DNA from: Vulcanisaeta distributa JCM 11217 | Lineage (GTDB): Archaea; Thermoproteota; Thermoprotei; Thermoproteales; Thermocladiaceae | Direction of reading: 5' to 3' | DNA: 64,000 bases | Assembly: GCF_001316005.1 (NCBI RefSeq) | Contig: NZ_BBBJ01000008.1 | Location: forward strand, 1 to 64,000 | In this document: one piece after another, positions 1-64,000 of the stretch | How the letters are laid out: every line of letters begins with the position of its first letter | Numbering within the stretch: the first letter of the stretch is position 1 | Program-made: the position numbers and the translations under genes | The notes under the pieces: model-generated | What the model was told of the DNA's origin: nothing | Databases searched by the model: none | What the model saw: the letters and a program-made list of their open reading frames with translations, nothing else

Positions 1-15
1 TAGAGGTCAGGTGGT

Positions 16-1059
16 ATGGATGAGTTAGGCGTGGTAGGGTTGGCGGTTGACCTTGATGGTAATACGGTAATTGTTGGACGTAGTGGGTCGGGTAAGACAA
101 GCTTAATGGAAGCCTTAGCCCTACTAATGCAGAGTAGGGGTGAGGAGTGGCTTGTCCTTGAGGGAAACCTGTTAATTATTCACGAGCCTGAGGACCTAGC
201 CTATGGCTTAGACCCTGGTGAGGCTATAACGATTGGTGTTTATTACGAGGTTGATGAGGATGGGGAGAGCCTTGGGCGTAGCACAGGCCTTGAGTTAAGT
301 AGGGGGTCCGTCATTGGTTATCACTATAGTTTTAGGCTTAAGGATTACTGGGTTCGCCAAGAACTGTACCTAGACAATGAGTTGGTGGCTGTTGTTGAGA
401 AGGTTGGTAATGAGGGTTCATGAGGTATCCAGTAAATGCTAAACTCTGTGTTGCACCGACTCACGTAATGCATGAGGATGCGTTCATCACCTGTGGCGGT
501 GACGAATCAAGGAGGGCCTACTCACTGGCGTTTATCCTAAGGAATATGCTCAAGAATAAGTTTTACTACCTTGGTGAGGGCAGGGTCTGTTGGTGGAAGA
601 GGGATTATGAAACCACCGTGGATTTACCGAGCAATTCCGTGGGGTCTGATGGGCAGTATACTGTGCATCAGCTCTCCGTGATACAGACAAGGCCTGAATA
701 TGAGGATATCTACAACGAATTAATGGGGCTAGCGAAGGAGCTTGGTATAGAGGGTATTAAGGCAGGCTTCACGGCTCCAAAGAGGGTTTCGGGGGTATAT
801 TAAGGTTAATGGTAAGTGGGTCCCCCCCATGTTCCACTCTGGCCTTAAGATGAAGGCCTTATTGCCAATTCTCGTTCAGTTAATACTCACGCCGCCAGGT
901 TCGGTATTACTCATTGACAGTGTTGACTTAGGCCTTACATATGATGAGTTGAATACTGTGGTTGACGTAATCAATAAAATAGCTGGGAAGGTTGGGTATC
1001 AAGTGGTGATGAGTAGTAAGGTGGCGCCAACCGTTAATGTGAGGGTTATGAGTATTTAA
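16..1059 (+). CDS. P-loop ATPase (SMC/RecF-like), frame broken twice
   Basis: The N-terminal piece has a Walker A motif GRSGSGKTS at residues 21-29. The third piece carries LLIDS followed by a conserved-looking D, which resembles Walker B. The order (P-loop, long beta-rich insert, C-terminal Walker B) is that of AAA ATPases of the RecF/SMC-like group. The frame is lost near 414-420 and again at the five Gs near 795-799, where four Gs would join the pieces. A C7 run at 821-827 adds a second Pro in WVPPMF. About 347 residues in total. The specific role is unknown. The 3' end overlaps the end of the convergent glycosyltransferase by 4 bases. Confidence 0.6.
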
Positions 1060-2239
1060 CGTGTTGTCTTCAACCAATTATTAACTGGCATTAGTGGTGA
1101 TGTTATTGTTACCGTACCAAGCAACAACCAATAGGCGGGCAATAGGATTAATGCCTTCCTCATGTCCATACTCTCGTTTATGAAATCACGCATTAGGTAT
1201 AGGACCACGACCTCCGAGATTGCCATAGCAAGTACTAATTGATATAGTGATTCCAATGTGAATACCCTGCTATCACGGCCATGTACACTACGGCGACGAA
1301 ACCAATAATGGAAATTAGCAATAATGCTGAGGGTAGTGCTATTAATACGTATAATGCCAATACCCTAAGCGCGTAATTAAATTGAACACCCTGCCTAAGT
1401 ATTAAAACGAAGTTCTGAGCATAACCCTTATTCCACCTAATCCTCTGCCTTATGAAGCTGATTATGTTCACAGGCGCTAACTCATATACGTAGGAGTCGA
1501 GAAGGCCCACTGAGTATCCACGACTAATTAGCTTTAGTGATAGTAATGCATCCTCAGCCATGCTCTGCGGTATTGAGTCAACAACGTCCCTCCTTATGAA
1601 GAGTCCCTCACCAGACAGAGGCGTTATCTTAATTGCAGATCTGAGGAATGGTATTATTGCGTTGTACCAAACTATTGATTCCAGGTACATCAAGCCACCA
1701 AGCACATTACTCCTAAACCTATACACCCTAGTGCCCACGGCCGCGTAATTCCTCTCCATCATTAGCAGAACCGCATTGAGGACTTGATCGCTTGGGAATA
1801 CGTCGTCAGCGTCATAAAAGCCAATTATTAGGCCCCCTGCATGTTTCATTGCAGTATTCATGGCTATGGCCTTGAGCCTACGCCCAGCATTCTCGTTAAT
1901 CACCATCTTAACATTGAGTGAGCCTAGGAATCTCTCTGCAGCCTTTAATGCCTCATTGAGGGTCTGCCTATCATCCTTGTCAACGACTATCAAAACTTCA
2001 AGGAGATTCTTCGGGTAGTTCTGAGATGATATGCTGTCAAGTGTCTTCTCAATGCTTTGCCTCCTCTCCTTATAGACGGGTAGTACTATTGAGACCTTTG
2101 GTAGATTCTCAACCTGGGCATTCTTTAATGAGGGCTTCTCGTATGCGTGGACCCTCCTTGAAACCATGTATTGTATTGCCCATAATAATGTACCTATTAT
2201 TATTAGTATTTCTAATACCATGACCGCATCAACTGTCAT
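1056..2239 (-). CDS. Membrane glycosyltransferase family 2, frameshifted near its C-terminus
   Basis: A single N-terminal membrane segment precedes a GT2 domain. Visible are the nucleotide-binding region (VSIVLPVYKE), the metal site FYDADD, the acceptor-site ED in AEDALLSLK and the QxxRW motif QRIRW that marks processive synthases of the cellulose/hyaluronan type. Several hydrophobic segments follow. The first reading frame stops at 1235. The next frame (1056-1256) continues with two more membrane helices, and restoring one G in GCAGGG near 1257 joins them. It probably transfers sugars from nucleotide donors to a lipid or surface polymer; the substrate cannot be read from sequence. Confidence 0.8.
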
Positions 2240-2376
2240 ACTACGAATATCTAAATTCAGGCATTAAAAGCATTTTTACTCACAGGAATGGGTGCTACGG
2301 CATACTGATATGATAGCGGATATTACAGCTATGGTTAGAATGAGTGCTTTAAATAGTGACAGGGCATTGGTAGGCT

Positions 2377-2580
2377 GTGGATTTAAGCATTAGGATTATT
2401 CAGGAGAGTGATGAGTATCAGGTAATCATTGAAGGTGACGGAGTGACACGTGTTCTTAAGGCGAGGTCTATTAATGAACTCATTAATTCATTAAGTACTG
2501 AGGTCAGGGACTTGCTAACGATTAAGGAGAACGATGATGCCCTTAAATCAAGCCCATGCACTCTAAGGTTGGTACATTAG
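2377..2580 (+). CDS. Small hypothetical protein (67 aa)
   Basis: This short frame begins with GTG and is followed closely by the next gene on the same strand. It reads as a compact alpha/beta protein with alternating charged and aliphatic residues. There is no membrane segment and no recognisable motif. Its codon use matches its neighbours (frequent AGG, GAG and ATT), which supports it being real. No function is proposed. Confidence 0.4.
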   Translation: MDLSIRIIQESDEYQVIIEGDGVTRVLKARSINELINSLSTEVRDLLTIKENDDALKSSPCTLRLVH

Positions 2581-2620
2581 GCTACCAGTCGCTAAACTAC
2601 TCGACATAGTAGCGTTCCTG

Positions 2621-3235
2621 GTGAGGAATAGGCAGGGTGATGACATGGAGGGGTTAATGAAGTACCTGGATTCCCACGGGCTTAGTAGGTCGAATTATAG
2701 AGTTATTATACCAACACTGTCGGCATTGGGTCTTTGGAAGCAGGGTAAATTGACGAGGGAGGCTGAGGAATTGGGTAAGGCAGTAATTAATGGTGGTCAG
2801 GAACTACCTAATTTACTTTATAGGATAGTCACTAGGAATTGCGTATTGAGAGAGGTCATTGAGAAGTTGGCTGAGGGATTACCGATGAACGAGGCGGTAA
2901 AGCTCCTGGGTCTTACGAGGAGGGATGAGGTTAATTACACGAGCAATTTACTGGAGATTGTAATGAGCAGTGACGAGTTTAAGTGCCTTCAATACTCAAA
3001 GGCATTAAGTAATTACTTGAGGAATGGCGGTTGCTTTACGGCCATTGACCTACCCAAAGGCTGCGTGTTGAATCAGGTAATCACGGTATTTAACTACTTA
3101 GTGAGTAATAAGGGCTTTCACCTAATGAGCCTTCTCAGCGATGTTGATGTTACGATAAACCTAAGCCTAATAAGCATTCAGCCAAGCAATGATTATGCGC
3201 TGATAATCCAGGGCGGTAAGCGATTGGCGCGTTAA
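2621..3235 (+). CDS. Hypothetical protein (about 204 aa)
   Basis: The frame is open from 2567, so translation may start upstream of the GTG at 2621, for example at ATT 2576 next to the previous stop. The protein is largely helical with scattered Cys residues (NCVLRE, FKCLQY, GGCF, KGCV). It has no membrane segment or catalytic motif that I recognise. Its TAA overlaps the ATG of the next small gene (3235), which suggests translational coupling of these three unknown genes. Confidence 0.5.
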   Translation: MRNRQGDDMEGLMKYLDSHGLSRSNYRVIIPTLSALGLWKQGKLTREAEELGKAVINGGQELPNLLYRIVTRNCVLREVIEKLAEGLPMNEAVKLLGLTRRDEVNYTSNLLEIVMSSDEFKCLQYSKALSNYLRNGGCFTAIDLPKGCVLNQVITVFNYLVSNKGFHLMSLLSDVDVTINLSLISIQPSNDYALIIQGGKRLAR

Positions 3236-3450
3236 TGGGTGATGTTATAACCACCAATAGCAATTACGCACCTAGGGCTAGGGAGACTGTGGATAGGCTT
3301 GAACCTGCGGCTACAAAGGTTATTAAGTCTAATAACCTGTCGTTTAGTATGATCATTGTGCCCATCGTTATAGCCGATGAGTGCCCTAGGATTAAGGTTT
3401 ACGTAATGGTTGGTAATAAAATGGGGGGATTGGATTGCGAGGGTTTTTGA
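3235..3450 (+). CDS. Small hypothetical protein (71 aa)
   Basis: The ATG overlaps the stop of the upstream gene by one base, so the two are probably translated together. The product is 71 residues with a central hydrophobic strand (MIIVPIVIA) and two cysteines. A G6 run near 3423 lies in KMGG close to the end, so the true C-terminus may differ. Not recognised. Confidence 0.4.
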   Translation: MGDVITTNSNYAPRARETVDRLEPAATKVIKSNNLSFSMIIVPIVIADECPRIKVYVMVGNKMGGLDCEGF

Positions 3451-3460
3451 CCTACCCTGA

Positions 3461-3934
3461 CTAAGTCTCCCTCGCGTAGATACTAACGAGTGATCTAAAC
3501 CCCCCCATCTTGTTGTAGAAGTTTATGGCTATCTGATTCTGAGTTGGGAATTCCGCCGTTATTAACTGAGCACCCCTCTCACGGAGCATTGTTATGGCCC
3601 TCTCAAGCATCATCCTACCCAACCCCTTACGCCTGTACTCAGGCATTACGTAGAAGTCCACAATGGCACCCTCAATGCTTGGCGAATAAAACAATCGCTC
3701 CCTAATATCCGCCTTCAACACACCAACTATCTTCCCCCCCATATCCTCAGCAACGAGTATTAAGTGATTCTTGTTATCACGTATTGCATTCATTAAGTAC
3801 TCCCTGGCGCGTTCCGCGCAATCATTCCTTGCACTAAATAGTGGGTCGAACTCACTATTAAGCCTTTTTAACCTGACGACCAGGTCTACCATGGCATCCA
3901 CATCGCTCTCCCGAGCCTCCCTAATCGTGACCAT
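3461..3934 (-). CDS. GNAT-family N-acetyltransferase
   Basis: This is a complete GNAT fold of 157 residues. It has an acetyl-CoA binding loop of the type RRKGLG and a preceding strand AIVDFYVMPEY. Near the C-terminus lies the usual FYxxxGF element, here spelled FYNKMGGF because a C7 run at 3500-3506 adds one Gly. A second C7 run near 3734 gives EDMGGK. The acceptor is unknown; the overall shape is RimI/ArgA-like. It converges with the small unknown gene upstream and diverges from the exosome operon. Confidence 0.8.
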   Translation of the reverse strand: MVTIREARESDVDAMVDLVVRLKRLNSEFDPLFSARNDCAERAREYLMNAIRDNKNHLILVAEDMGGKIVGVLKADIRERLFYSPSIEGAIVDFYVMPEYRRKGLGRMMLERAITMLRERGAQLITAEFPTQNQIAINFYNKMGGFRSLVSIYARET

Positions 3935-3997
3935 ACAAATAACTAAAGAAGTCCACCCTTAAAAATGCTTTTATACCAAGAGTTAATAATCGATTCA

Positions 3998-4740
3998 ATG
4001 GGTAAGCAACCCCCCCGGTGCCATTACTTGTTAATGGTAAGAGGAGTGATGGTAGGTTACCAAACGAGCACAGACCCGTTAGGATGGAGGTCGGTGTGAT
4101 AAACAATGCTGAGGGTAGTGCGTTGGTTGCCTATGGTAATACCGTAATACTAGCCGCGGTTTATGGACCGAGGGAAGTACCGCAAAAGCACCTTGAGTTA
4201 CCTGACAAGGCAATACTCAGGGTTAGGTATCACATGGCTCCATTCAGTACATCTGAAGGTAGAAAGAGCCCAACACCATCTAGGAGGGAGATAGAGATTT
4301 CTAAGGTGATTAGGACGGCGCTGGAGCCTGTGATAATTCTCGAGAGGTTCCCAAGGACTACAATCGATGTTTACATCGAGGTTTTACAGGCCGATGGTAG
4401 TACGAGGGTCACAGGCATAACGGCGGCATCGCTTGCATTGGCTGATGCTGGGATACCAATGAGGGATTTACTGGTCGGCGTTTCCATAGGCAAGGTCTCT
4501 GGAACTATAGTCGTTGATCTTAACCAACTTGAGGATCAGTATGGTGAGGGTGACATGCCCTTAGCCATAATGTATGGCCGTGGATTGATAACGTTAATGC
4601 AGGCTGATGGTGAGTGGACGCCGGCTGAGGTTAACCAGGCACTTGACTTAGCCTTTAAGGCTGCTGAGCAGATATATAGGTTGGAGAAGGAGACACTTAA
4701 GAGCAAGTACGTTGAGCCATCAATGTCATTGGTTATTTAA
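3998..4740 (+). CDS. rrp41: Exosome core RNase PH-like subunit Rrp41
   Basis: This is the catalytic RNase PH-type subunit of the archaeal exosome, which degrades and tails RNA 3' to 5' as a hexameric ring with Rrp42. Motifs include [28 protein letters not shown] and [11 protein letters not shown]. The ATG at 3998 gives an N-terminus ending in the typical PPVPLL only if the C7 run at 4010-4016 is shortened to C5. As written, the frame opens at about 4018. Rrp42 follows 72 bases downstream, the usual archaeal order. The catalytic Asp (EDQYGEGD) is present. Confidence 0.95.
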
Positions 4741-4811
4741 CCTTAAAAGCCACCTTGATCTAACCGTGACGAATAAAGTTAAAAGGGCTTAATTAATAGT
4801 CCCCCCCCTAA

Positions 4812-5662
4812 ATGCTAAGCGTAACCCAGGAGAGAGGTATTATTCCGAAGCTTAAGCAGGATGTCATGAGGAAGATGATTGAGCAGGGTGTTAGGATTGA
4901 TAATAGGGGGATTGAATGATTATAGAGAATTGAGTATTAGGGTCAATGTTGTGAAGACGGCCGATGGAAGTTCCCTGGTATCCCTCGGCAATACCAAGGT
5001 AATGGCTGGCGTTAAGGTTGAGGTGGGCAAGCCCTTTGAGGACACACCAGATGAAGCGCATTAATCGTGAACCTAGAGATAGCGCCAACGGCATCGCCAG
5101 ACATAGAGCCTGGACCACCTGATGAGAATGCAATTGAGATAGCCAGGGTTGTGGATAGGGCGATAAGGCATAGCGGCTTTCTCGACTTTAAGTCGTTATC
5201 AATAGTTACGGGAAAACACGCGTGGTTTTTATGGGTCGACATATACGTGCTCAACCACGATGGCAACCTAATGGATGCATCGACAATAGCCGCGGTGGCT
5301 GCACTAATGAATACCGCATTACCTAAGGTGGAGCTTGACCCTGCAGGTAATATATTGAAGATAGATAGAAGCGTTAAGTCACCCCTTAAGCTCAATACCG
5401 AGAAATTACCACTAACAATAACCCACGTCAAGATAGGAAACTTCCTACTCGTTGATCCAACCCGTGAGGAGGAGGACCTATCTGATGGCGTTTATATAAC
5501 CGGCATCGCCGGTGGTAACGTTGTGGCTATTCAAAAGGTTACGGGCGCCTTCACGAAGGATGAGGTAAGTAACATAATTAATAACTCGGTTAATCAATAC
5601 GTAAAGCTTAGGGGCATTATCATGAATGCATGGCAAATCCACAGACGGACCTTAAATTGTGA
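4812..5662 (+). CDS. rrp42: Exosome core RNase PH-like subunit Rrp42, frameshifted
   Basis: Non-catalytic partner of Rrp41 in the exosome ring. The start at ATG 4812 gives the usual N-terminus (IIPKLKQD...GVRIDNRG). The frame then slips at G5 4906-4910, where G4 restores RGLNDYREL. It slips again near 5056, where one more G restores the EGALIVNLEI stretch, and near 5630, where one A gives MNAMANPQ and a TGA at 5660-5662. Family landmarks are EPGPPDENAIE and LDVYVLNHDGN-like text. The longer frame to 5720 runs into a C/D sRNA on the other strand and is probably not coding. An 8-base C run sits just before the start codon. Confidence 0.9.
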
Positions 5663-5718
5663 AGTCAGTCCTCAGCGGTTTCTTCATTATTCAGGGCTGC
5701 AAACCATCATCACTGGGT
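5661..5718 (-). ncRNA. C/D box sRNA (2'-O-methylation guide)
   Basis: On the minus strand the elements have canonical spacing. Box C GTGATGA (5713-5707) is followed by a 12-nt guide, box D' CTGA (5694-5691), a 3-nt gap, box C' ATGAAGA (5687-5681), a second 12-nt guide and box D CTGA (5668-5665). Both guides are exactly 12 nt, as in archaeal dual guides that bind L7Ae, Nop5 and fibrillarin. The first guide is complementary to GGCTGCAAACCA, which resembles an anticodon stem-loop with anticodon GCA. The second is complementary to TCCTCAGCGGTT, which resembles a tRNA D arm. It lies in the gap after rrp42. Confidence 0.85.
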
Positions 5719-5752
5719 AATAAATATCAAAATTAATTAAAGGGTTTGCGCA

Positions 5753-6428
5753 TTGTTTATTGCAGTGGCCAATGTAGGTGTTAGGTTTGAGGATTATGTG
5801 GCTGAATTATTGAGTAGGCTTGGGCTTAGGGTCCTTGGTAGGAGGGTTAAGGTCACCGTTAATGGGGGGGTTGAGGTTGGCGAGGTCGACATAGTGGCTG
5901 AGGATAGTTCTGGCAACAAATACGCCATTGAGGTTAAGTCGGGTAAGGTTGACGTGAGCGCCATTAGGCAGGCATATGTTAATGCTAAGGTACTGAATGC
6001 AAAACCACTTATTGTGGCTAGAGGTTTTAGTAATGACTCGAGTAAGGCCTTAGCTGATGAGTTGGGGGGGGTTTCTGTTATAAATCTTGAGGAGGCTGTT
6101 GTATTAACGATTGATGAGTTAAGGACTGTCATCGAGAACGTGATTTACGAGGCAGTTGGCGATTTAATAAATACCGTGTTCACATTGGCCATGAAATCAT
6201 GTGATGGTAAGGTTAGGGATATTATGAACGCTGTGATGAACTGCAATGACTGGAGCTGCGTGTGCGAGAGGTTGGGGGGTTAACGCGGATAATTGTGGTT
6301 CATTAATAGGCGATGTTAGGAGGGAGTTAGGCCTTGGTAATTTATCGCTCGGTAAGTTGAAGACGGCAATTCGATTATACAACCTTATCTCCCTATTAAT
6401 TAACTCATGCAATAGAGGAAATGCTTAA
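5753..6428 (+). CDS. PD-(D/E)XK nuclease-like protein, frameshifted
   Basis: The core reads VRFEDYVAELL, GEVDIVAED and YAIEVKSGK. These are the E, D and ExK positions of the restriction-endonuclease-like fold. A helix (VSAIRQAYVNAK) and a strand follow, as in YraN/Mrr-like or RecB-family proteins. The last 60 residues contain several Cys and are reached by shortening the G6 run at 6276-6281 to G5. Starts at TTG 5753 or GTG 5765 are both possible. Two in-frame G7/G8 runs (5864 and 6064) add single Gly residues. The DNA substrate is unknown. Confidence 0.65.
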
Positions 6429-6453
6429 TTAGGATGTTACGGTTACCACGTTA

Positions 6454-7920
6454 ATGAAGATTGACGACTTACTCAGGGAGTACAAATTCGTGTGGGCCAT
6501 TGACCACGCAAACTCACTGCTTGGGTGGGACCTTGAGGTTAATATGCCCGTTGAGGCTGCATCGGCACGTGGTGAGGCGTTGGCTTACCTAGCGCTCATA
6601 CGTAGGGAGTACCTACTTAGGCTTAGGGATTTGGTCGGTAAGTATGAGGATGCTAAGGACTTAACCGACTTCGAGAGGGGGGGAGTCATTAGGGTCTTGA
6701 AGAGGGAGTTGAAGTACTACACGTCGGTTCCTCCTGAAATTATTGAGGAATTAAATAGGGTCACTACGAAGGCTGCCGTGGTTTGGAGGGAGGCGAGGAG
6801 GGAATCAAACTTCGAGAAGTTTAAGCCATACCTGTCAAAGATCGTGGAGCTGGAGAGGGTTATTGCTGATAAGCTTGGTTATGAGGGACACCCATACAAT
6901 GCGCTGCTGGATTTGTATGAGGAGGGCTTTACCGTTAATGATGCCGATAACGTATTTAACACATTACTCCCTAACCTAAAGTCAATACTTGAGAAGGTGT
7001 TGAGTGAGGGTAGGTATCCAAGTAAGCATCCACTTGAGGATGTGCCTTACGATGTTAATGTCATGAAATCAATCAATGAGGAGTTACTTAAGATACTCGA
7101 TATGCCCGTGGGCACGAGGTTCCGTATGGATGTGTCTGCACACCCATTCACAACGAGCATGTCCATAAACGATGTTAGGATAACCACTAGGTATGAGGGT
7201 AAGGACTTTAGATCAACGATGTTCTCCGTAATTCATGAGAGCGGTCACGCAATGTATGAGTTAATGATCGACCATCTGGAAATGACGCCAGTTGGCCGAG
7301 GAGTCTCCATGGGCGTTCACGAGAGTCAGTCGAGGTTTTGGGAGAATGTTGTTGGTAGGAGTAGGGAGTTCGTGCACTTAATATACCCATTACTCAGGGA
7401 GAGGCTGCCATTCCTTAAGGACTATAGCGAGGAGGACATTTACAAGTACTTTAACATTGTTAGGCCGAGCCTCATTAGGGTTGATGCTGATGAGGTCACT
7501 TATAACTTCCATATAGCCCTTCGCTATGAGATTGAGAAGGGGGGGTTGATAGCTGGTAAGCTTAATGTGTCTGACCTACCATCGCTTTGGGAGGACTTCA
7601 TGGATAAGTACCTGGGTGTTAGGCCTAGGAATGATGCTGAGGGTGTTCTCCAGGACATTCATTGGTCCCAAGGTTCCTTTGGCTACTTCCCAACCTACAC
7701 GCTGGGTAATGTCATTGCTGGAATGATCTACGCGAAACTCCCTGGGCTTAAGGATAAGATCGCGGACAGGAGGTTTAATGAGATTAAGGAGTTCCTTAGG
7801 GATAGGATTTGTAAGTACGGTGCCATATACCCACCTAAGGAGTTGCTCAGTAGGTCATTCAATGACACGTATAACCCAACGTACCTACTGAATTACCTGC
7901 GTGAGAAGTACCTGGGCTAG
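6454..7920 (+). CDS. Carboxypeptidase Taq-like metallopeptidase (M32)
   Basis: A zinc carboxypeptidase of 488 residues, the usual length of the family. All M32 signatures are present in order: AHPFT, the zinc site HESGHAMYE around residue 260, HESQSRFWEN, IRVDADEVTYNFH and the QDIHWSQGSFGYFP region that shapes the substrate site. It should remove C-terminal residues from peptides in the cytoplasm. Two G7 runs (near 6677 and 7539) are in frame but give ERGGVI and EKGGLI where family members have one residue fewer. Confidence 0.92.
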   Translation: MKIDDLLREYKFVWAIDHANSLLGWDLEVNMPVEAASARGEALAYLALIRREYLLRLRDLVGKYEDAKDLTDFERGGVIRVLKRELKYYTSVPPEIIEELNRVTTKAAVVWREARRESNFEKFKPYLSKIVELERVIADKLGYEGHPYNALLDLYEEGFTVNDADNVFNTLLPNLKSILEKVLSEGRYPSKHPLEDVPYDVNVMKSINEELLKILDMPVGTRFRMDVSAHPFTTSMSINDVRITTRYEGKDFRSTMFSVIHESGHAMYELMIDHLEMTPVGRGVSMGVHESQSRFWENVVGRSREFVHLIYPLLRERLPFLKDYSEEDIYKYFNIVRPSLIRVDADEVTYNFHIALRYEIEKGGLIAGKLNVSDLPSLWEDFMDKYLGVRPRNDAEGVLQDIHWSQGSFGYFPTYTLGNVIAGMIYAKLPGLKDKIADRRFNEIKEFLRDRICKYGAIYPPKELLSRSFNDTYNPTYLLNYLREKYLG

Positions 7921-7967
7921 GAAATCACTAAAAAGACTTAAAAGTTATTGATTGTTAGCAATTAGGT

Positions 7968-10446: not shown

Positions 10447-10501
10447 ACAAACAACGACTTGTTTGAGGGATTTTAAATATTAAGGGCTTAATAATAATTA
10501 A

Positions 10502-11195: not shown

Positions 11196-11237
11196 TAGTC
11201 ACTGAATAATCCTGAAATAAATAAACTTTACCGCAAT

Positions 11238-11516: not shown

Positions 11517-11548
11517 TAATTACCCAGAACCTGCAAAATTATTAAGGG

Positions 11549-11982: not shown

Positions 11983-11984
11983 AA

Positions 11985-13382: not shown

Positions 13383-13409
13383 GGAAGAGGCATTGAGATA
13401 TTGACCTAT

Positions 13410-15546: not shown

Positions 15547-15549
15547 GCC

Positions 15550-22106: not shown

Positions 22107-22760
22107 GGAGGGAAAATTCCTAGTTAAACTGGCTAGGATGGCCGTGGAGGAATACCTACGTAGTGGCAAGATAATCCAGCCGCCGCCAGATACACCATCG
22201 AGACTGCTTAAGGATAAGTATGGCGTATTTACAACAATAGAGGTTTCATGGGTAAGGATAGGAGGGGTGAACTTAGGGGTTGCATTGGTTTTCCGCAGGC
22301 GGTTTATAACACGGTGAATGGTGTAATTAGGAGCGCCATAGCCGCCGCTGTTGAGGATCCAAGGTTTGAGCCCATGAGGATTGAGGAACTGAGTAAGGTG
22401 ACCTTTGAAGTATCAATATTGAGCCCACTCGAATTGCTTGAGCCCGGTAATCCAAGGAGTTACCCAGAGAAGATTGTGGTTGGTAGGCATGGTATTGTGA
22501 TTCAGAAGGGTTACTACTCGGGGCTTCTCCTGCCCCCCCAAGTCCCCCCCGTTGAGTATTGCTGGGACTCCATGACATTCCTCAATGAGGGTTGCATGAA
22601 GGCATTTCTACCACCTGATTGCTGGCTTGATGAGGATACGTCAGTGCTTATTTACGAGGCTCAGATATTCAAGGAGGTTGAACCCAACGGTGAGGTTGTT
22701 GAGAGGGATTTAATGGAGGAATTAAAAGGGTGTAAAAATGCCAATAAAAATGAGAGCTGA
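22084..22760 (+). CDS. AMMECR1 domain protein, frameshifted
   Basis: Family signatures are LRGCIGFP, AAAVEDPRFEPM, EVSILSPLELLE, YPEKIVVGRHGI, GLLLP.QV...EY.WD and CMKAFLPPDCWLD. The frame slips near 22246-22250, where one missing base would join IEV to GKDRRGELRGC. Two C7 runs (22533-22539 and 22544-22550) turn the near-invariant LLLPQVxVEY into LLLPPQVPPVEY. The biochemical role is unknown in all domains; the family is widespread and conserved. The end overlaps the PHP gene by 23 bases, implying coupled expression. Confidence 0.92.
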
Positions 22761-45311: not shown

Positions 45312-47167
45312 ATGAGCAACTGCACGATTAGGCTAATGCTTGGTAACCACGCAATTGCCCATGGAGCGCTAGAGGCTGGTATAGCCGTTGCGGCTGGTTA
45401 CCCAGGTACACCATCAAGCGAAATCATTGAGTACCTTATTGATTACGGTAAGGAATTTGGTGTCTACGCTGAGTGGAGTAGTAATGAGAAGGTCGCCTTT
45501 GAGGTGGCTTATGGAGCAGCCCTCACTGGCGCTAGGTCAATGGTTACGATGAAGCACGTAGGGCTTAACGTGGCCATGGACCCACTAATGTCAAGCGCTT
45601 ATACGGGCGTAAGGGGAGGCTTCGTCATTGTCACGGCTGACGACCCAAACATGTGGAGCAGCCAGAATGAGCAGGACAATAGGTGGGTTGGGCTTCACGC
45701 CTATATCCCCGTCCTTGAGCCCTACGATCCACAGAGCGCTAAGGACTTCGCGAAGATTGCCTTCGAATTTAGTGAGAGATATGGACATCCAGTGATGCTG
45801 AGGACCGTCACCAGGGTATCCCACGTTAGAGGGCCCGTAACTATATGCTCACCGGGAATCCCTAAGTATTCGAAGGAGTACGTTAAGGATCCAAGAAGGC
45901 ATGCGTTAATACCCGCTAATGCGCGGGCGCTTAAGGAGGATTTATTAAGGAGGTGGGACAGCATCAGTAAGGGTGTTGAGGAGTTACCGCATACTTACAT
46001 TGATGGTGATAAAAACCTCATAATAACCAGTGGCGTGGCCTTCACATACGCATTAGAGGCCGTTAAGGGCTATGGCGTTAAGGCAAGTATACTTAATGTG
46101 GCAACGCCAGTACCATTACCTAAGAAGGTTATTATGGATGCGGTTACCAGGGCTGATAAGGTAATCGTTATTGAGGAGGGCGATCCAGTACTCGAGTATC
46201 AATTAAAGGCCCTGCTTTATGACGAGGGCGTTAGGGTACCTGTACTTGGTAAGGCTGAGAACATCTTCAATAGGTTGGTGAATTAACTATTAATTCCGTA
46301 ATGGATGGATTATCAAAGGCTCTCGATATTGTAAATCCACTCGCATCATTAAGAGCGGTTAAGGTCGACTACACGCCACCGCCAAGGCCACCCGTCTTCT
46401 GCCCGGGTTGTCCACATACCGCCTCATTCTATGAATTAAAGGTTGCCACAGCTAAATCCGGTGTTAAGCCCGTATTTAGTGGCGACATTGGTTGTTACAG
46501 CCTAGGTATTAACAACCCATTTAACGAACAAGACTTGCTTACTGACATGGGCAGTTCCCTGGGCCTGGGCATGGGTCTTTACCATGGCACTAATGGCAGG
46601 ACAATGGTAATATCAATAATTGGAGACTCAACATTCTTCCACGCGGGCCTACCCGCACTGGTTAATGCTGTTTATAACAAGACTCCAATGTTGATATTGA
46701 TTCTCGATAACAGGGTTACGGCAATGACCGGCGGACAACCAAACCCAACAAGCATGATTAATATCGAGGATATAGCCAAGGCCGTTGGTGTTGATTACGT
46801 AAGGACAATAGACCCATTCGACGTAAAGAACGCTCAGGAGACCATGATTGAGGCAATGAACGTAGTTAGGAAAGGCGGAGTCGCAGTCGTAGTCATGAAG
46901 AGGGGGGGCTGCGCGCTGGAGGCCACTAGGTTGTTTAGGGGGGGCTACGTGACGCGTTACTACGTCGACCCAGATGCATGTAAGGCCTGCGGAATATGCT
47001 ACAACCTAGTTGCATGCCCAGCAATAGTGCCCCTCGAGAATAGGAAGGCCTGGATAGACCCTAACATGTGCGTTGGATGCTCCGTCTGTGCACAGGTATG
47101 CCCATACAATGCAATCAAGCCGGAGGGCAATGTTAGGGATTGGCTAAAGAAGTGGGCTGAGATGTAG
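45312..47167 (+). CDS. iorA: Indolepyruvate ferredoxin oxidoreductase, alpha subunit (IorA), frameshifted
   Basis: This enzyme oxidises aryl pyruvates from aromatic amino acid breakdown, makes acyl-CoA and reduces ferredoxin. The N-terminal half has GNHAIAHGALEAGIAVAAGYPGTPSSEI. After a slip near 46277, where one G restores RLGELTINSVMDG, the TPP-binding half follows: CPGCPHTASFYEL, GDIGCYSLG, GDSTFFHAG. Two 4Fe-4S sites end it (CKACGICYNLVACP, CVGCSVCAQVCP). G7 runs at 46905 and 46938 give KRGGCAL and FRGGY. iorB follows directly. Confidence 0.93.
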
Positions 47168-49389: not shown

Positions 49390-49464
49390 TGGTAGCCGGG
49401 CGGATTCGAACCGGGGGTCAACGGGTCCAGAGCCCGCCATCCTTGGCCGCTAGACGACCCGGCT
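49390..49464 (-). tRNA. tRNA-Gln (CTG), T arm two bases short as written
   Basis: On the minus strand the acceptor AGCCGGG pairs with CCCGGCT and CCA is encoded. The anticodon arm GCGGG-CTCTGGA-CCCGT gives anticodon CTG. The D arm GTCT-AGCGGCCAA-GGAT is typical of crenarchaeal tRNA-Gln. The T arm is CCCGG-TTCGAAT-CCG, two bases short of the five needed to pair, which looks like loss of GG from a GGG at the palindrome GGGCCC. A TATA-like TTTAAA lies at 49487-49493 upstream. No intron. Confidence 0.9.
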
Positions 49465-49618
49465 AATAACAAAGGCAAGGAACCAGTTTAAAAGCGCTAC
49501 GCATCGCGAGTCATCACGGCATTACGCGAAACTGAAACAACGAAGACCCTAATAAGGCAATCACATAAAATAACCAATTACCATATTAAACCAAGAAACC
49601 ACGAAAACAACGACCAAT

Positions 49619-51428: not shown

Positions 51429-51447
51429 CATGAGAAATTGAACGAGA

Positions 51448-52804: not shown

Positions 52805-52826
52805 TGCCTTTGATGCATAATGTGAT

Positions 52827-53270: not shown

Positions 53271-53340
53271 GCCTGTTGAATATCTATTGATTGCTCATTC
53301 GGCATCGTTGCCTTCCCAGGACCACTCGCTCATGGGTTAA

Positions 53341-53643: not shown

Positions 53644-53716
53644 ATTATTATTTTATCCACTTGATTTATAAGTTACTTTCAGTGTTGGGGGTTGAAATAT
53701 TTCGTGAAATTGAAAA

Positions 53717-54996: not shown

Positions 54997-55038
54997 GTAC
55001 TTTTAAGGGCAATGCGCTATTTAAAACCTATAGCCTTA

Positions 55039-56139: not shown

Positions 56140-56434
56140 CCCTTTATCAGGCCTATGACGAGGCCTATTATGAATGCCAGTGATGAGTATGGAATGGCGC
56201 CAATGAATTGCTGAGCCTTCACGTAGGCTACGCTCATTGCATAGCCTGCGTAATGCAGTAACGTGACTAGTGTTGATGGGCTTAGGTAGCCCAGGGCTAT
56301 CGCGAGTATTACTATGGCTAGCAGTATTAGGCGACGCCTATCAACCTCCTTATTAGGATACCCACGAGTAGCCCAAGTATGAACAAGCCTATTATACTGA
56401 CTATCTGCGTTAGTGTTAAACCAAATATCTCCAT
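56136..56434 (-). CDS. Small membrane protein with about three helices, frameshifted
   Basis: From ATG 56434 the text EIFGLTLTQIVSIIGLF and LGLLVGILIRR gives one helix and then stops. In the next frame VDRRRLILLAIVILAIALGYL, LVTLLHYAGYAMSVAYVKAQ and AFIIGLVIGLIKG continue to TAG at 56138-56136. The length is not a multiple of three, so one base is missing near 56340. The end overlaps the upstream gene's stop on the opposite strand. Unknown function. Confidence 0.5.
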
Positions 56435-56468
56435 TTAGGAATAAATTATAGGAGCGGTAATATAAAAG

Positions 56469-56889
56469 TTAACCCATGCTACTAAGTACCTCCTTAACGG
56501 CCTTAGACAACAGCTCAGATACCTCACGACCCTCCTCCTCAGTCAGGTAATGCCTACCAACCACGTGACCAGCCATTGGTATTACGTGGAAGTGCAGGTG
56601 AAAAATTACCTGGCCGGCCTCGGCACCATTGTTTTGGACTATCCTAACGCCAGGCGCATTTAATGCTTTGATAACAGCCATGGCCACGGCTTTAGTAACC
56701 CTTATCACGCGGCATAGCTCGTCACTCGGGATCTCAGTTATATCCCTATAATGCCTCTTTGGCATTACGAGTGTGTGACCCCCTATTTATTGGGTACTTA
56801 TCGAGTATTGCGATTACATGGTCATCCTCATAAACCACGTAGGCAGGTTCCTCACCCCCCCTGATTATTCTGCAGAATACGCAGTCCAT
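56469..56889 (-). CDS. HIT-family nucleotide hydrolase, frameshifted
   Basis: The catalytic triad HLHFHVIP and the N-terminal CVFCRIIRG are of the Fhit/HinT kind. C5 near 56779 breaks the frame; G4 gives KYPINRGHTLVMPKRHYRD and links the start at ATG 56889. A C7 run near 56854 gives IIRGGEEPAYVVYED, one Gly more than usual. It hydrolyses nucleoside phosphoramidates or dinucleoside polyphosphates. About 140 residues, normal. Confidence 0.9.
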
Positions 56890-56933
56890 AGTGATAAGAC
56901 GCCAATAATAACCTGCTTTAAAGATTTAATTGC

Positions 56934-57250
56934 TCAGCACATGCCTCCGTACGATGAGATAGATAGTAGGTAAAAGCTGACGGTAAATATCACGAGAATA
57001 GCCACAAAGACCATAAGCAATAGGTCACTGGCACTACCCCCCCTACCGAGATAATTCATTAACAGGTAAATGCCCGCGACCGCCAGTATTAGGCTAGTAT
57101 CTCCATCATCGTAAATGGGCCTGAGCATGTTGATGCAACGCCAGGCGTGTAAACCGCGTACCAGAACCCCCCCATTACGAATAGCACGAGTAGCAATGCA
57201 GCCACAATACCAAGGGCTGCAAGCCACTTACTCGGCGTTACTGAGCTCAT
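56934..57250 (-). CDS. Small membrane protein, two to three helices, frameshifted
   Basis: ATG 57250 begins a membrane helix (SKWLAALGIVAALLLVLFVMG) followed by FWYAVYTPGVASTCSGP. Restoring one C near 57121 continues with IYDDGDTSLILAVAGIYLLMNYLG and a third hydrophobic stretch to 56934. A Cys at each end of the loop is notable. Unknown family. C7 near 57270 lies just upstream of the start. Confidence 0.5.
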
Positions 57251-57430
57251 CAATGTACGCCTGAAACAACCCCCCCTTTTAAAGATGACTTACCCACCGT
57301 AATTAATGAACACCGCGTATACCCGGTAAATTAGGAACTAAGCAATAGGGATATTATATTCATTATTAGGTTGATAAGGCCTGAGGGATTAATAATAGAC
57401 CCTATATACCCAAGCCAATTGATTCAATTT

Positions 57431-58430
57431 ATGAATAACGTCATGAGACTCACCGCATTTAGTGCGTTTAATGTGGATCCATGCTACGTGGGTTATTGGG
57501 AATACTCATTGGGGGCAAATCCTAGAACCATCAATTAGGAAGTACCTACTTACCAATCTTTACGTCTTTGTATGGACAGCACCCACATTCGTATCCCTAC
57601 CAATCCTTGGAATTCCGGCTTATGCTGATGGCAATGGGACCTTTTACTGGGACACGTGCCTGGCGGTGGGCAATGTGGTTAATGTGGAGTGGTTAATGGG
57701 TCATAACCTGGTTTATTGGGTCCCCCCCGTGGGTGTGATTGGCTATGAGAATTACCTTGAGGACTCCACCATGTATTATAATAATGGTTTTGTGGTCTCC
57801 CAATTAGGGGCCATTGATTATTACTACGGATACGAACAGTACAGTGCCGGCATTACCAACACCTTAATTGGCAATCAGGGCGGTGCCGGTGTTTGGGGCC
57901 CAGCACCAATGAGTGGCGTTAATCAATATGGCGTGTTCCTACTCGGCGTTGTATCAGTAATCCCATTTATAGGCGTTAACATGACACTACCTCCAGGCGC
58001 CACTGAGGATATTGGCAACCTGCTTAGCCCCACCGAGACAATAAGCTTTAATGGCTGGACTGTGGAGGTGGCTAACATCACGTGGACCTTCAACATAGAT
58101 TATGGGAGTAATCAAAAGATGTTTGCGAATGCCTTCGAGAATCTCTTAGCTAATTTATTCATACCAAGCCTAACCTCAGTAAGTGACGCCGAATTTAATG
58201 TGCATTTCGATAATTACGTAATCACATTGTATAGGCCATACGAGTACTTCACGACCGAGACCATTTGGGTCAATACGACGTGGATGACAATCTTCATACC
58301 TCAATCAAGCACCGTAGTGAGTATACCAATGTATCATCAACAATCATCGACCCCCCCATCAAACTCCTACGTGAGTGGCGTATCATCAAGTAGGTACTAC
58401 TTATTATATGGTTTGTATGGTTATGGATAG
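57431..58430 (+). CDS. Hypothetical aromatic-rich protein, probably surface-exposed, frameshifted
   Basis: From ATG 57431 (or a TTG near 57372, as the frame is open upstream to 57331) the text reads RLTAFSAFNVDPCYVGYWEYSLG. It continues as QILEPSIRKYLLTNLYVF if G5 57511-57515 is read as G4. The rest is rich in Tyr, Trp, Asn and Ser with NxS/T sites (NMTLPPG, ANITW, VNTTW), and ends in QQSST...SSSRYYLLYGLYGYG. This composition is that of archaeal exported proteins, perhaps a thermopsin-like or S-layer-associated protein. No clear signal peptide and no catalytic motif seen. Confidence 0.5.
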
Positions 58431-58509
58431 GTCAATGGCATTAAGCACCTCTAGGCGATGAATCCTCTGGAATATGTTTTAAATACCGGGGTTAAGCCAT
58501 GACCTATTA

Positions 58510-59096
58510 ATGGATAATAATGACCTGAGCTTTCATGGTAAGGTGCTTTATACGGGGATTGAGAAGTGCCCCCCCGTATGTGGTAGGGATTCTCTTCATG
58601 TGATTGAGATACTATACAATGACCCTGCCTTTGGTGACTTAATACTATATAGCAATCAATGTGACTACTGCGGTTATAGGAGGGTTGATATTCATTACCT
58701 AAACTCCAGGGGGGGCCTGTCAGGATAATATACGAGATTAAGGATGATGTGGATGTCTATAGGACCTACATATTTAGGTCAAGGACCGCCAGGATAAGCA
58801 GTCCTGAGCTTGGCTTTGACATCGATCCAGGACCTGATGCGGAGGCCATGATAACCACGGTGGAGGGCCTATTGCTAAGGATGATTGATGTTGCGGAAAG
58901 GATGGAGGTTCTTAATGAGGATAATGAGGAGAGTATGCGTAGGCTGAGGGAGTTTAAGGATAAAGTACAGAGGGCTCTTCAGGGAGGTCTTAGGTTTAGG
59001 ATAATCATTGAGGATCCATACGGTAATTCAGTAATCAAACCGCCACCAGGTCGTGATTCCGAGGTCCGTATAGAGCCACTCAACCCGATGGCGTGA
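58510..59096 (+). CDS. ZPR1-related zinc-finger protein, frameshifted
   Basis: Archaeal ZPR1 homologue. The zinc finger has two Cys pairs: EKCP(P)VCGRD and QCDYCGYRR. G7 at 58709-58715 breaks the frame; G5 gives SRGPVRIIYEIKDDVDVYRTYIFRS. The conserved block ARISSPELGFDIDPGPDAEAMITTVEGLL follows. The C7 run 58569-58575 puts an extra Pro inside the first Cys pair, so CxxC reads CxxxC. Eukaryotic ZPR1 is a chaperone for elongation factor 1A, which suggests a similar role here. Confidence 0.88.
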
Positions 59097-59147
59097 TAAC
59101 CCCCCCCTTGAGTTAAGTTTTTAACTTCCTGATAATGCCGATAATCA

Positions 59148-59327
59148 ATGCCTAGGCGTAGGCGTACATCGGGGGGGATGTCACCATTCATAGCCGCTGG
59201 GTTAGTTAAGTTTAATGAGGCTAAGGAAATTGAGAGGATTAAGATAAGCCCGCAGGCCGTTATATTCCTCGGTATTGCAATCTCGGTAATAATAATAATC
59301 CTGAAGTTCCTAGTTCCCCCCCTCTAA
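59148..59327 (+). CDS. Protein translocase subunit Sec61 beta
   Basis: 59 residues. A basic start PRRRRTSGG leads to MSPFIAAGLVKFNEAKEIERIKISP, then a single membrane helix (AVIFLGIAISVIIIILKFL). This is the archaeal Sec61 beta/SecG-equivalent, which binds SecYE. Two tracts lie inside: G7 near 59171 (TSGGM) and C7 near 59316 (LVPPL), both in frame. The 3' end overlaps the GGGP synthase gene on the other strand by 18 bases. C8 at 59100-59107 lies upstream. Confidence 0.9.
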   Translation: MPRRRRTSGGMSPFIAAGLVKFNEAKEIERIKISPQAVIFLGIAISVIIIILKFLVPPL

Positions 59328-60086
59328 GCTCCTCCTCTTCGCGATTCCACCCTCATGAACAGCCCTTATAATGTCCTTAATTAACTCCGGTTTTTCCTCA
59401 ACAATCGTACCCGTAACTATCGCGTCAGCGCCAGCCCGGGCTAATTCCGCCGCCTTCTCGGGATCTCTGATGCCACCACCAACGATTAATGGCTTACTCA
59501 CCAACTGCTTTACCCTGGAGACCATTCTTGGCCTCACGGGTTCGCGAGCACCACTGCCGGCCTCGAGATATATCATGTCAAAACCCATTAACTGGGCTGC
59601 GTATGCGTAGGCTAGGGCGATGTCATCCCTATCGTAGGGTATTGGCCTTGCATTACTTACGTAGCCGACGGCGCCGCCATCGCCGATTATTATGTAAGCC
59701 AGTGATATTGGCTCCAGGTTCCTAAACCTCTTTATTAGTAGTACCGAGGCCTGTATTTGGGCGCCTACTATGAAGTACGGATCAGTGCTGTTAAGTACGC
59801 TGAGGAAGAACACGGCATCGGCATACCTACTCAGGTTTGCCACGCTGCCTGGGAATAGAATAACGGGTATCTTCATCGAACCCTTAACCGCGCTTAGGTA
59901 CTCATCGAGCTGCCCCTCGGATATGCCTAGTGAACCACCAACCATAAGCGCATCACTGCCGTATTCCTGAACCATCAATGCCAATTCCTTGAATTCCTTA
60001 GCGGTTACCTTATCTGGGTCAAGCAATGTCATGTGTATTGTGCCGACCTCGGCAATACGCTTAAGTAGGTAATCCTTAACACCCAT
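59310..60086 (-). CDS. Geranylgeranylglyceryl phosphate synthase
   Basis: TIM-barrel prenyltransferase that makes the first ether bond of archaeal lipids. Motifs are THMTLLDPDK-like text (TIHMTLLDPDKV), LMVGGSLGI, PVILFPGS, IYLEAGSGA and the phosphate loop PLIVGGGIRDPEKA, ending in AGADAIVTGTIVEE. 258 residues, intact. With the geranylgeranyl reductase at 9-10 kb it covers two steps of membrane lipid synthesis in this window. Confidence 0.95.
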   Translation of the reverse strand: MGVKDYLLKRIAEVGTIHMTLLDPDKVTAKEFKELALMVQEYGSDALMVGGSLGISEGQLDEYLSAVKGSMKIPVILFPGSVANLSRYADAVFFLSVLNSTDPYFIVGAQIQASVLLIKRFRNLEPISLAYIIIGDGGAVGYVSNARPIPYDRDDIALAYAYAAQLMGFDMIYLEAGSGAREPVRPRMVSRVKQLVSKPLIVGGGIRDPEKAAELARAGADAIVTGTIVEEKPELIKDIIRAVHEGGIAKRRSLEGGN

Positions 60087-60120
60087 TAGGAATGAGGGAG
60101 TAATTATTGAATTTTAAGTA

Positions 60121-60573
60121 TCACTCCTCGGTATAGCCTGTATCCTCAGAGTACTCGCTCTCCTCGCCGTAAACCTCCTCAGCGCTGCCCTCGCTGAATT
60201 CCTCACCACCCTCGGTGAAGGGCTCGGTTGATTCCTGCGTCTCCTGTTCCTGCTCCTCGCTTAGTAATGGATTTGTCTTGGTTGTTAATTGGGATAATGA
60301 CACGGTTACCTCCTTCTTAGGCTTTATCTGACCCTGGTAATAAAGGTCAACGAATTTGTTGAAGTAATCCACGGGGGGGAGTAAACCTGGTATGTAATTG
60401 AACTCAGCCTCAAGGCCGCAATTACCGCAGTTAACCAGTACCTTCCCCCCCTCCTTCTTATCAATCTTCACATTAACCAATGGTGCGCCGCAGTGTGGGC
60501 ATGTGAATATCTTTGGCAGTGTCTTCTTGGGCTTTAGTAGTAACTTCTTACGACTTTTCCTCCTACGACCCAT
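60121..60573 (-). CDS. Elf1-like transcription elongation factor
   Basis: N-terminal basic GRRRKSRKKLLLKPKK leads to the four-Cys zinc ribbon FTCPHCGAPLVNV and VNCGNCGLEAEF, then VDYFNKFVDLYYQG. This is the Elf1 fold found in archaea and eukaryotes. A long acidic Glu/Ser/Tyr tail follows. 150 residues. G7 (60373) and C7 (60446) runs add Pro in LLPPVD and Gly in KKEGGKV. It acts with RNA polymerase during elongation. Confidence 0.88.
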   Translation of the reverse strand: MGRRRKSRKKLLLKPKKTLPKIFTCPHCGAPLVNVKIDKKEGGKVLVNCGNCGLEAEFNYIPGLLPPVDYFNKFVDLYYQGQIKPKKEVTVSLSQLTTKTNPLLSEEQEQETQESTEPFTEGGEEFSEGSAEEVYGEESEYSEDTGYTEE

Positions 60574-60648
60574 CGAAGCCCCAACTAAACTTTAATATAA
60601 ATATCTTTTTCTTCCTATTCCCACTAATTGCCTGTAAACCCAGTAATT

Positions 60649-60705
60649 CAGGTCAGCCGGGTATGTTATCGTCATTGATCCGCGTAACTCTGAATCATCA
60701 TGAGC
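60649..60705 (-). ncRNA. C/D box sRNA (2'-O-methylation guide)
   Basis: On the minus strand, box C ATGATGA (60701-60695) is followed by a 12-nt guide, D' CGGA (60682-60679), a 3-nt gap, C' ATGACGA (60675-60669), a 12-nt guide and D CTGA (60656-60653). Box types and spacing are the same as in the sRNA at 45.2 kb. The guides are complementary to CGTAACTCTGAA and CCGGGTATGTTA. It lies in the 203-base gap between Elf1 and the divergent DUF92 gene, which otherwise holds only AT-rich promoter DNA. Confidence 0.87.
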
Positions 60706-60776
60706 ACCATATCGAGCATAATCAAGCACTCAATAGGTATTGAAATAATACTTAAAAAACCTTATCGAGCATTTAA

Positions 60777-61698
60777 TTGATGCATGGATTAATCACGAGC
60801 ATTGGCGATGCTGTAATTACGTATTTGGTAATCGTGGTTGTGGCATTAATAATATCATTAGTATTGACCTATGCCGCGTTAAGGATTAGGGTGATTACGA
60901 GGGATGCCGTCATACCATCGGTTCTCATAGGCTCTATGATACTCCTTGGTGGGCCATCATCAATACTGCCATTCGTGGTATTCCTAGGAAGCTCAAGCGC
61001 ACTTACCAAGGTGGGTGTTGAGAGGAAGGAGGAGCTTGGCACTGCCGAGGATGTTAAGGGGGAGGAATTGGAAGCAGGTACTGGCTGTTGGCTTGGTACC
61101 AAGCACCCTTGCGTTGCTGGCTGGCGTGGCTTACTTCGCGCACGATATCGCCATGTATCAATTACTCTCCACGGCGGCCGTAACTAGCATCGCCTACTCA
61201 AACGCGGATACCTGGGCCTCTGAATTGGGTGTTCTCAGTAGGTCAAGGCCTAGGTTGATAACGAGGCCCTGGACCGCAGTCGACCCTGGTGTGTCGGGTG
61301 GCGTTACATTACTTGGTGAGCTCAGCTCATTCACTGGGTCAACCGTAATAGCACTAACTTACTTAGGCATTCAATACCTGCTCAGGTTCCTGGGGGGGTA
61401 TATAAGCTCAGTGAATATTTGGCTTGTCATTGTTGTTTTAATCCTTGGTTACCTGGGTGAGGTCCTTGATAGTGTTTTTGGGGGGGCTTTGTTCCAACCT
61501 AAGTATGTATGCCCTAGGTGTGGCGTTATGACTGATAGGGAGATTCACGTGTGTGGTGAGAGGGCCGTGAGAGTCATGGGTAGTTATGACCTTGAGAATG
61601 AGGATGTAAACCTGCTCGTATCAGCCATAATAGCTGCGGCTTCAATAATTACCTTATTACTGTTAATAAGTCCTCGCGTGATTATACCCAATTTATAA
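60777..61698 (+). CDS. DUF92 membrane protein (VTE6-like), frameshifted
   Basis: Seven or so membrane helices with the family signatures YSNADTWASELGVLSRSRPRLIT, VDPGVSGGVTLLGEL and LDSVFGALFQ. DUF92 includes plant VTE6 phytyl-phosphate kinase. The frame slips at G5 near 61060, where G4 gives VKGRNWKQVLAVGLVPSTLAL. A zinc-ribbon-like CPRCGVM...HVCGE follows the G7 run at 61480. That run gives VFGGALFQ where the family has a single Gly. A polyprenyl-phosphate kinase role is possible. Confidence 0.82.
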
Positions 61699-61840
61699 GG
61701 CTAGCGGGTAGGTAATTATTCCTCATGGGCATTCATAAGTACAGGCATATTTATTGCATATTTATGCCTGGATATACAGGGCTATTACGTATACGTACCT
61801 AATCATGAACCCTTTAAATCTGGCTGTCTACGTCTACTTA

Positions 61841-62184
61841 ATGACCCAGATAACGAATATTTACGCCGATTTCAAGAAAATCGAGGAATTAGTTGCGAGG
61901 GGGGGCTTGTGGGTGGCTGTTAAGTATGCGAGGGGGGGTACCTGCGTGAGTTTCACGCCAAAGAAGGTTCTTGAGTATGCGGAGTTCAATGACGCAATAC
62001 CTGTGGTACTCACGCTGGTTAAGCATGTGCTTAAGCAGCTTAGTGATTCCGGTTATTTGCAGGTTGATAGTAGTAGGAGTGTCGTTAGGTACAGGCTGTG
62101 TAAGGACTCCAGGCTTTGGGGTTGATAAAGCAGAGTAGTGGTCCTGAGGATGTATTAAAATTCCTCGAGGAAGTGACCCAGTGA
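61841..62184 (+). CDS. Small winged-helix-like protein, frameshifted at end
   Basis: ATG 61841 follows a TTTAAATC box at 61813-61820. The text ITNIYADFKKIEELVARGG, CVSFTPKKVLEYAEF, VLTLVKHVLKQLSDSGYLQVD and RSVVRYRLC reads as a small winged helix. The frame ends at 62125. One T inserted near 62118 continues with GLIKQSSGPEDVLKFLEEVTQ to TGA 62182-62184. G7 runs near 61899 and 61932. Function unknown; DNA binding is an inference. Confidence 0.5.
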
Positions 62185-62238
62185 GTCGTTACTCTAAATC
62201 CAACACCTTATATATGAGGCATGCACATTCTCATTGAA

Positions 62239-63239
62239 ATGAGTGGGGGGGAAGGCAGTACCAGGATGGGCGGTGTGTTAAGGGGGGTTTTGGAGAGACG
62301 AATTTAATAGGCATTATTAGGAACATCACTGGTTCGGCCGAGGATAATGACTTGGAATTTATCGAGGTTGATGGCACCGCATTGGCCATTAAGATTGATG
62401 GTATATCACTATCGACATCGAGAATGCCCTTCATGACCTACTTCGACATGGGTTGGAAGGTCATGATGGCAGTGGGTAGCGACTTCCTCGTAAAGCTAAG
62501 TAGGCCTCTTTATGCCGTGGTCTCAATAACCATGAGAGGCAGCTCGGGTATTGATGAGTTTAGGGAGTTGATTAGTGGGTTGAATGAGGGAGCAAACTAC
62601 CTTAGCATGAGGTATTTAGGTGGTGATTTAAATGAGGGGGGGTTTGATGACATTATTGATGTTGCCGCAGTGGGTAAGCCATTGGCTGGTGTTATAGGTA
62701 GGAGGCCTAGGATTGGTGATGTTCTCGTGACCAAGCCTTACTTTGGTTATACGGGTCTCGTGTTTAAACTATACTATAGTAATGAGTTGGATAGGTGGGT
62801 TGATTTGAGGATTGTTAAGGAGGGGGGGATAGACATGATTAAACGACCCAAACTTGAGATGAATTTACTAAATGAATTATTGAAACGTAGAGACTGCATT
62901 TCGGCTAGTATGGACTCAAGTGATGGGCTTGGTAAGGTGCTTTGGACAATGGCCATGGACGGCAACGTTAAGATAGTGATTAATGATTTACCAGTTAATG
63001 AGGAGTTTCTTAACATGGTGAGTGAAATCAGCGGTATTAATATTGAGGAGGTCGTGTTTAATGGCGGTGAGGAGTTCCTGCCCGTGTTCTCAGTAAGGAG
63101 GGATTGCATACCCGAGTTTGAGGAGCTTGGTTTTAAGGCGTTTGCAACGGTTGAGGAGGGTAGCGGCGTTTACTTTAGGGACTCAATACTTAGGTATAGG
63201 GGGGGTTGGGACTACTTCATTGGCTGGGCCAGTACCTAA
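62239..63239 (+). CDS. ThiL-like kinase of the AIR synthase superfamily, frameshifted
   Basis: Signatures of thiamine-monophosphate kinase/PurM-type proteins: DGISLSTSRMPF, VAAVGKPL, RPRIGDVLVTKPYFG, SASMDSSDGLGKVLW and FNGGEEFLPVFSV. The N-terminus is joined by reading G6 near 62282 as G4 (VLRGFGETNLIGIIRN). Four G7 runs are in frame. It may phosphorylate thiamine monophosphate. The usual Asp cluster is only partly clear, so a paralogue with another substrate is possible. Confidence 0.72.
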
Positions 63240-64000
63240 GCCTCAATAGCCCTTATTTCGCCCTTCACGAATATCTCACGCGTCAATGTTACGATAACTA
63301 CTATAGCCATTACGTAAAGCGCCGTGGTTATTATAAACATTAATTGATAGGAGAACTTCGCAGGCAGCGTTATCCAGAACAGGGGGGCCTTAATGAAATG
63401 AGCACTGAGCTTGGTACATACTCATTAATGAACCAGCCACCGCGGGCCCCCCCACGCACCCCCTATGTTCCTAAAGACCGAGTTAAGACCTGTGGCAAGG
63501 CCCATGTTTCTCCTGCCCACGGAGAAGACTAGGATGTTTATCACCGCGACATTAACCATACTTATGCCGGCGGCTAGTACGGACATCGACCCTATCACAT
63601 ATGATAAGCCGAGGAATGACGTGTACGTGAGCATTAATAGGCCGATTATGGCTATTGAGGAGCCAATGACAGCCAACTTCCTGGCGCCGATGCTCGTGAT
63701 TACCCTACCGGCTATTGGCGCAACTATCATCTGAACAACGGCCATGGGTATCATCATGATGCCTGCATCAAGTATTGATAGGTCATAACCAAGAGGCTTG
63801 GGCGACTCAAGTAGGTATGTTAAGGCTTGAGCCATTAGGAATAGGGCGAAGCCGGCCAGGGCAACGCCTATGTTGGCGGCCATGACATTCCTATTACCTA
63901 ATAGGTTTATTGGAACCAGGGGGGGTAATCAACCGTTGTTTCGTAAAGCACAAATACTCCAAAGCCTAGCACAAAGAGTGTAAGTAGGGACATTATTAGT
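63236..64000 (-). CDS. MFS drug/solute transporter, 3' part only, frameshifted, truncated by window end
   Basis: Hydrophobic text runs in three frames: SLLTLFVLGFGVFVLYETTVDYP (63996-63910), then AANIGVALAGFALFLMAQALTYL, AAGISMVNVAVINILVFSVGRRNMGLATGLNSVFRNIGGAWG (63883-63440), then APLFWITLPAKFSYQLMFIITTALYVMAIVV to TAG at 63238. The FRNIGGA(x)G-PAVAGS element is typical of 14-helix DHA2 carriers. C7/G7 runs at 63447 and 63919 and a G6 at 63382 break the frame. The N-terminus lies beyond the window. Confidence 0.75.

Follow-up and report, generated by a model that had tools for sequence, protein, structure and literature searches.

The runs of exactly seven G or C residues that fill the draft assembly of Vulcanisaeta distributa JCM 11217 are almost certainly a homopolymer-calling artefact extending over the entire assembly: the pattern is real in the file but absent from the organism, and no biological function of the tracts is involved. 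An earlier note, made from the nucleotide sequence alone, had weighed such an error against genuine tracts and had favoured error. That preference is now backed by the alternation of affected and unaffected genomes within one genus, by changes in the 23S rRNA gene and by the lack of excess sharing of sites between two affected drafts.

Methods

The window is the whole stretch of 64,000 nt analysed here, positions 1 to 64,000 of contig NZ_BBBJ01000008.1. The genomes compared were its source assembly (G000), the drafts of Vulcanisaeta sp. JCM 16159 (G002) and Vulcanisaeta sp. JCM 14467 (G005), and the draft of V. distributa JCM 11216 (G003; BBBI, NZ_BBBI01000007.1), the last of which was assigned by sequence identity. 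Run lengths were compared only where the three bases on each side of the run were identical in both sequences, within alignments of more than 200 bases (more than 100 for the 23S rRNA gene). On these terms, 30 of the 144 long runs of the window were comparable via G002 and 31 via G005. The distribution of the effect was surveyed in 81 genomes, namely G000 and 80 relatives.

Results

The earlier note had estimated about 140 runs of at least six G or C, nearly all of length 7 and none beyond 8. The exact count in the window is 144, made up of 10 runs of length 6, 119 of length 7 and 15 of length 8, while longer ones are absent; the respective numbers are 3, 69 and 9 for C and 7, 50 and 6 for G. 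A simple model of same-base continuation predicts about nine runs of length 7 (4.6 of C and 4.2 of G), and for exact length 4 it predicts about 180 each, against 30 C and 37 G runs (67 in total) actually present. The A and T runs of the window are normal, their counts declining smoothly to length 6. The count over the whole assembly that the note had suggested gave 3857 exact G7 or C7 runs in 2.08 Mb, and the effect covers the whole genome. The run-length histogram of 320 kb of contig C1 is that of the window. Clustering along this contig was considered and rejected on plain counts of 22 to 60 long runs in each of sixteen 20-kb bins.

The alignment with G002 spans 57 kb of the window at 81.8% DNA identity. 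Runs of at least four G or C occur at 3.81 per kb in the window, 3.77 in G002 and 3.85 in G005, but the share of these that are six or longer is 59% in the window versus 1.1% in each of the two relatives. The runs of the window differ from those of the relatives by length and not by number: ordinary runs of four and five were lengthened in place. Where G002 has four residues, the window has seven or eight in 26 of 46 cases, four in 13, five in 5 and three in 2; where G002 has five (n = 5), the window has seven in three cases, five in one and a single residue in one. Against G005, seven or eight replaced four at 25 of 37 sites. In the control pair, G002 versus G005, length 4 was kept in 32 of 34 runs and lengthened in none. 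Runs of three in G002 were three in the window as well in 321 of 327 cases, and A and T run lengths were essentially the same in the two sequences.

Expansion from four or five residues, as the earlier note had proposed, is thus seen directly against the relatives' genomes, where the runs are mostly of length 4 to 6 and not 7; in the 23S gene, runs of six were extended in the same manner. That some runs of four escape, as the note had also said, is borne out by the 13 unchanged cases above. Its view that G2 and G3 runs lose a base as part of the effect is not supported, because a change from three to two (4 of 327) and from two to one (4 of 1223) between the window and G002 is no more frequent than in the control pair, whose two drafts are free of the G/C effect (4 of 256 and 5 of 863, respectively). 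Individual sites are given in Table 1.

Table 1 Lengthened runs and related features of the window, with the state of the aligned genomes
Feature	Position	Strand	Observation
G/C runs of length 6–8 (n = 144)	1–64000	both	spread over the window
Two C7 runs	22533–22539 and 22544–22550	+	G002: CCCC and CCC then T; G003: CCTC and C7
C7	29835–29841	+	G002 and G005: C4; affected G003: C7
C7	30171–30177	+	G002, G003 and G005: CCTC; expected length in this species probably 4
G7 inside ORF 46301–47167	46902–46908	+	G005 and G003: G4; G002: GAGG
tRNA-Gln gene	49391–49465	-	run of 4 reads 5 at 49413–49417; CCC reads C, relative to G002 and G003
C7	51452–51458	+	G005: C5; 2 longer than G005, which is no multiple of 3
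C8	54541–54548	+	G002 and G003: C4; G005: CCC then T; 4 longer than G002, frame-breaking

Contig C10 of the same assembly opens with part of the 23S rRNA gene, which is cut there. Compared with the G002 gene (L019), 39 of its 60 runs of four to six residues read seven or eight, which applies to 22 of 39 runs of four, 13 of 17 runs of five and all 4 runs of six. Five further references from the same genus show the same picture as G002. Taken at face value, these alignments would mean dozens of insertions in an rRNA at positions conserved among its relatives, which is not credible, and arguments from codon gain or slippage do not apply to this gene. The change in the 23S gene is the strongest evidence for error. 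For the 16S rRNA as a second test, an archaeal SSU match was absent from the 19 contigs of the assembly.

Damage to a tRNA, which had weighed in the earlier note's preference, is present in the tRNA-Gln gene (Table 1), where both changes stand out against G002 as well as G003. The tRNA-Val gene in the window still has a good score (48.8 bits versus a gathering score of 29). In the affected draft G003 the tRNA-Val gene (L055, about 2555–2643) contains an extra stretch with a C7 run that is absent there from the window, G002 and G005; this stretch is possibly an intron. Separately, the segment 39563–39850 of the window gave several scattered matches in each of G002, G003 and G005 and no match to an RNA family, and it is probably a short multi-copy gene family.

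Thousands of exact G7 or C7 runs were found in 3 of the 81 genomes: besides G000, these are G003 from the same genus (4803) and G020 from the same family (7958), which has the peak at 7 and the ceiling at 8 as in G000. The other ten genomes of the genus have 0 to 5 such runs each. A draw of 398 genomes from the phylum, with G020 outside it, contained more than 1000 in G000 and G003 alone, the next highest count being 340. Among 80 named loci (of 471), a peak at 7 appeared in L087 alone, while in L084 length 7 occurs once and length 6 is absent. Although G003 and the unaffected G002 are 95.0% identical over about 39 kb, runs of four in G002 read seven or eight in G003 at 53 of 86 sites. The trait follows assemblies and not ancestry, affected and unaffected genomes alternating within one genus. 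At sites where a relative has four residues, G000 and G003 were both long in 13 cases, only one of them was long in 7 and 6 cases and neither in 1 (Fisher p 0.63, small numbers); on these small numbers, lengthened sites are common to the two drafts no more often than by chance.

The draft G002 showed a deviation of another kind. In 74 kb of it (L051–L054), A and T runs of length 6 are nearly missing (2), and there is an excess of runs of 7 (11) and 8 (4). At the A/T sites where G002 has seven or eight, the aligned G003 sequence has six in 6 of 6 cases. This draft likely carries a second homopolymer fault that is specific for A and T.

Real, hypermutable G/C tracts held near seven residues are a reading that the earlier note had left open. 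Such tracts might be tolerated, since a step from four to seven inserts a single codon, or slippage in transcription or translation might correct them. Phase-variable poly-G and poly-C tracts of some bacteria are likewise intragenic stretches of G or C with a length of about seven or more; however, they are few and located in particular genes, whereas the runs described here occur everywhere, including in rRNA, and are shorter in close unaffected relatives. It would fit with such tracts that the reading frame is kept in most changed runs with a reference length of at least four (24 of 37 against G002 and 25 of 35 against G005). Yet frame-keeping is expected anyway if most true runs are four residues long, because seven minus four is three, and changes from five to seven and from four to eight also occur in the window. 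G002 and G005 have four to five residues at the same sites and no long tract there, the 23S gene is altered in the same way, two drafts as close as G003 and G002 differ completely in these runs, and G000 and G003 have no more long sites in common than chance would give. Hypermutable tracts are therefore unsupported, and we regard them as extremely improbable.

A strain-specific DNA modification of G/C runs of at least four, occurring in part of Vulcanisaeta and in a related genus, might also distort the sequencing signal, in which case the artefact would be the trace of real chemistry. That the effect is confined to G and C and sets in sharply at four would agree with this. Dependence on flanking bases or on a motif, tried as a sign of modification, was rejected: neighbouring bases affect lengthening weakly (for example, runs are long in 55% of cases after an upstream C compared with 66–67% after A or T) and there is no motif. 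Moreover, the effect is found in three genomes of 81, from two genera, and spares the 95% identical sister. We therefore consider a modification highly unlikely and retain the interpretation of a calling error.

Discussion

The source of the error is probably a flow-based sequencing platform. According to a 2023 paper (PMC9872577), the draft BBBK01000000 of V. souniana JCM 11219 was made on Ion Torrent PGM. It belongs to the same accession series as the affected BBBI (G003), and from this neighbouring JCM draft we infer a flow-based homopolymer-calling fault in a batch. Two 2014 announcements of other JCM strains name PGM as the platform and Newbler 2.8 as the assembler (PMC3961732, PMC4014693), and several JCM Vulcanisaeta drafts are listed under BB accessions in a 2016 paper (PMC5069417). 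The complete V. distributa genome (matched to G008), assembled from 454 reads with Newbler according to its description (PMC3035369), has 2 exact G7 or C7 runs, so that flow data or Newbler alone are not the cause. G002 and G005 are also JCM drafts but lack the G/C effect; at most one batch was affected.

The closest known errors are the homopolymer over-calls and under-calls of PGM and 454 (Bragg et al. 2013, PMC3623719), which resemble the present ones in that length errors become worse with length and frameshifts result. The direction does not match. As described there, errors on runs of at least two are mostly under-calls, long homopolymers are mostly called too short and high-frequency indels are mainly A/T insertions or C/G deletions, whereas here runs of four to six of G and C exclusively are over-called by two to four residues with a ceiling at eight. 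Because the published errors are opposite in direction, a jump by three in G and C alone is not the textbook error of the PGM. This atypical jump to seven under a ceiling of eight would suit an artefact of another kind, such as a long-read error or a consensus or polishing error. We consider a non-flow origin improbable, as G003 is a JCM draft with an accession close to that of a PGM draft, and prefer the flow-based source.

The Ion Torrent base caller may include a length recalibration that starts at four. The onset at four, the restriction to G and C, the prevalence of seven over five or six, the cap at eight and the weak influence of flanking bases look like a wrong length correction in one batch. 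That such a step for strong G/C signals was the origin of the jump is a tentative proposal, to which we give somewhat less than an even chance. In the affected drafts (G000, G003 and G020), true runs of four, five or six G or C were written as seven (or eight) at roughly 60% of the sites, and runs of one to three as well as A and T runs were left intact. These drafts probably belong to the RIKEN-JCM series sequenced on Ion Torrent PGM, in which the length of a run is read from the size of the signal. Under the proposal, the length of G and C signals of at least four would have been wrongly corrected in one batch, which would have pushed the calls to about seven with a ceiling at eight. Each site would then have been fixed at four or seven by whichever reads covered that site. 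In the literature searched, we found neither a paper on the homopolymer length recalibration of Ion Torrent nor an earlier report of this particular artefact, the latter being no proof of absence.

Conclusions

Completeness amounts to 67, 67 and 47% in the three affected genomes, and to 63% in G002 and 81% in G005. As the value of G002 is low despite the lack of the G/C effect, other draft errors also lower completeness. In the window, 30% of the sequence falls within open reading frames of at least 250 residues, with 24% in G003 and 20% in G020; the coverage is 52–65% in G008, G011, G014 and G017, and 34–37% in G002 and G005 although these are without the G/C effect.

Three species-representative archaeal drafts, one of them that of V. 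distributa JCM 11216, hold thousands of exact G7 and C7 runs, most of which are probably false. Such assemblies can be screened for simply by setting the number of exact G7 runs against the number of G4 runs. The false runs lead to spurious glycine and proline codons and to frameshifts, and proteins and completeness values derived from the affected assemblies are to be distrusted, as is any absence or splitting of genes in them.
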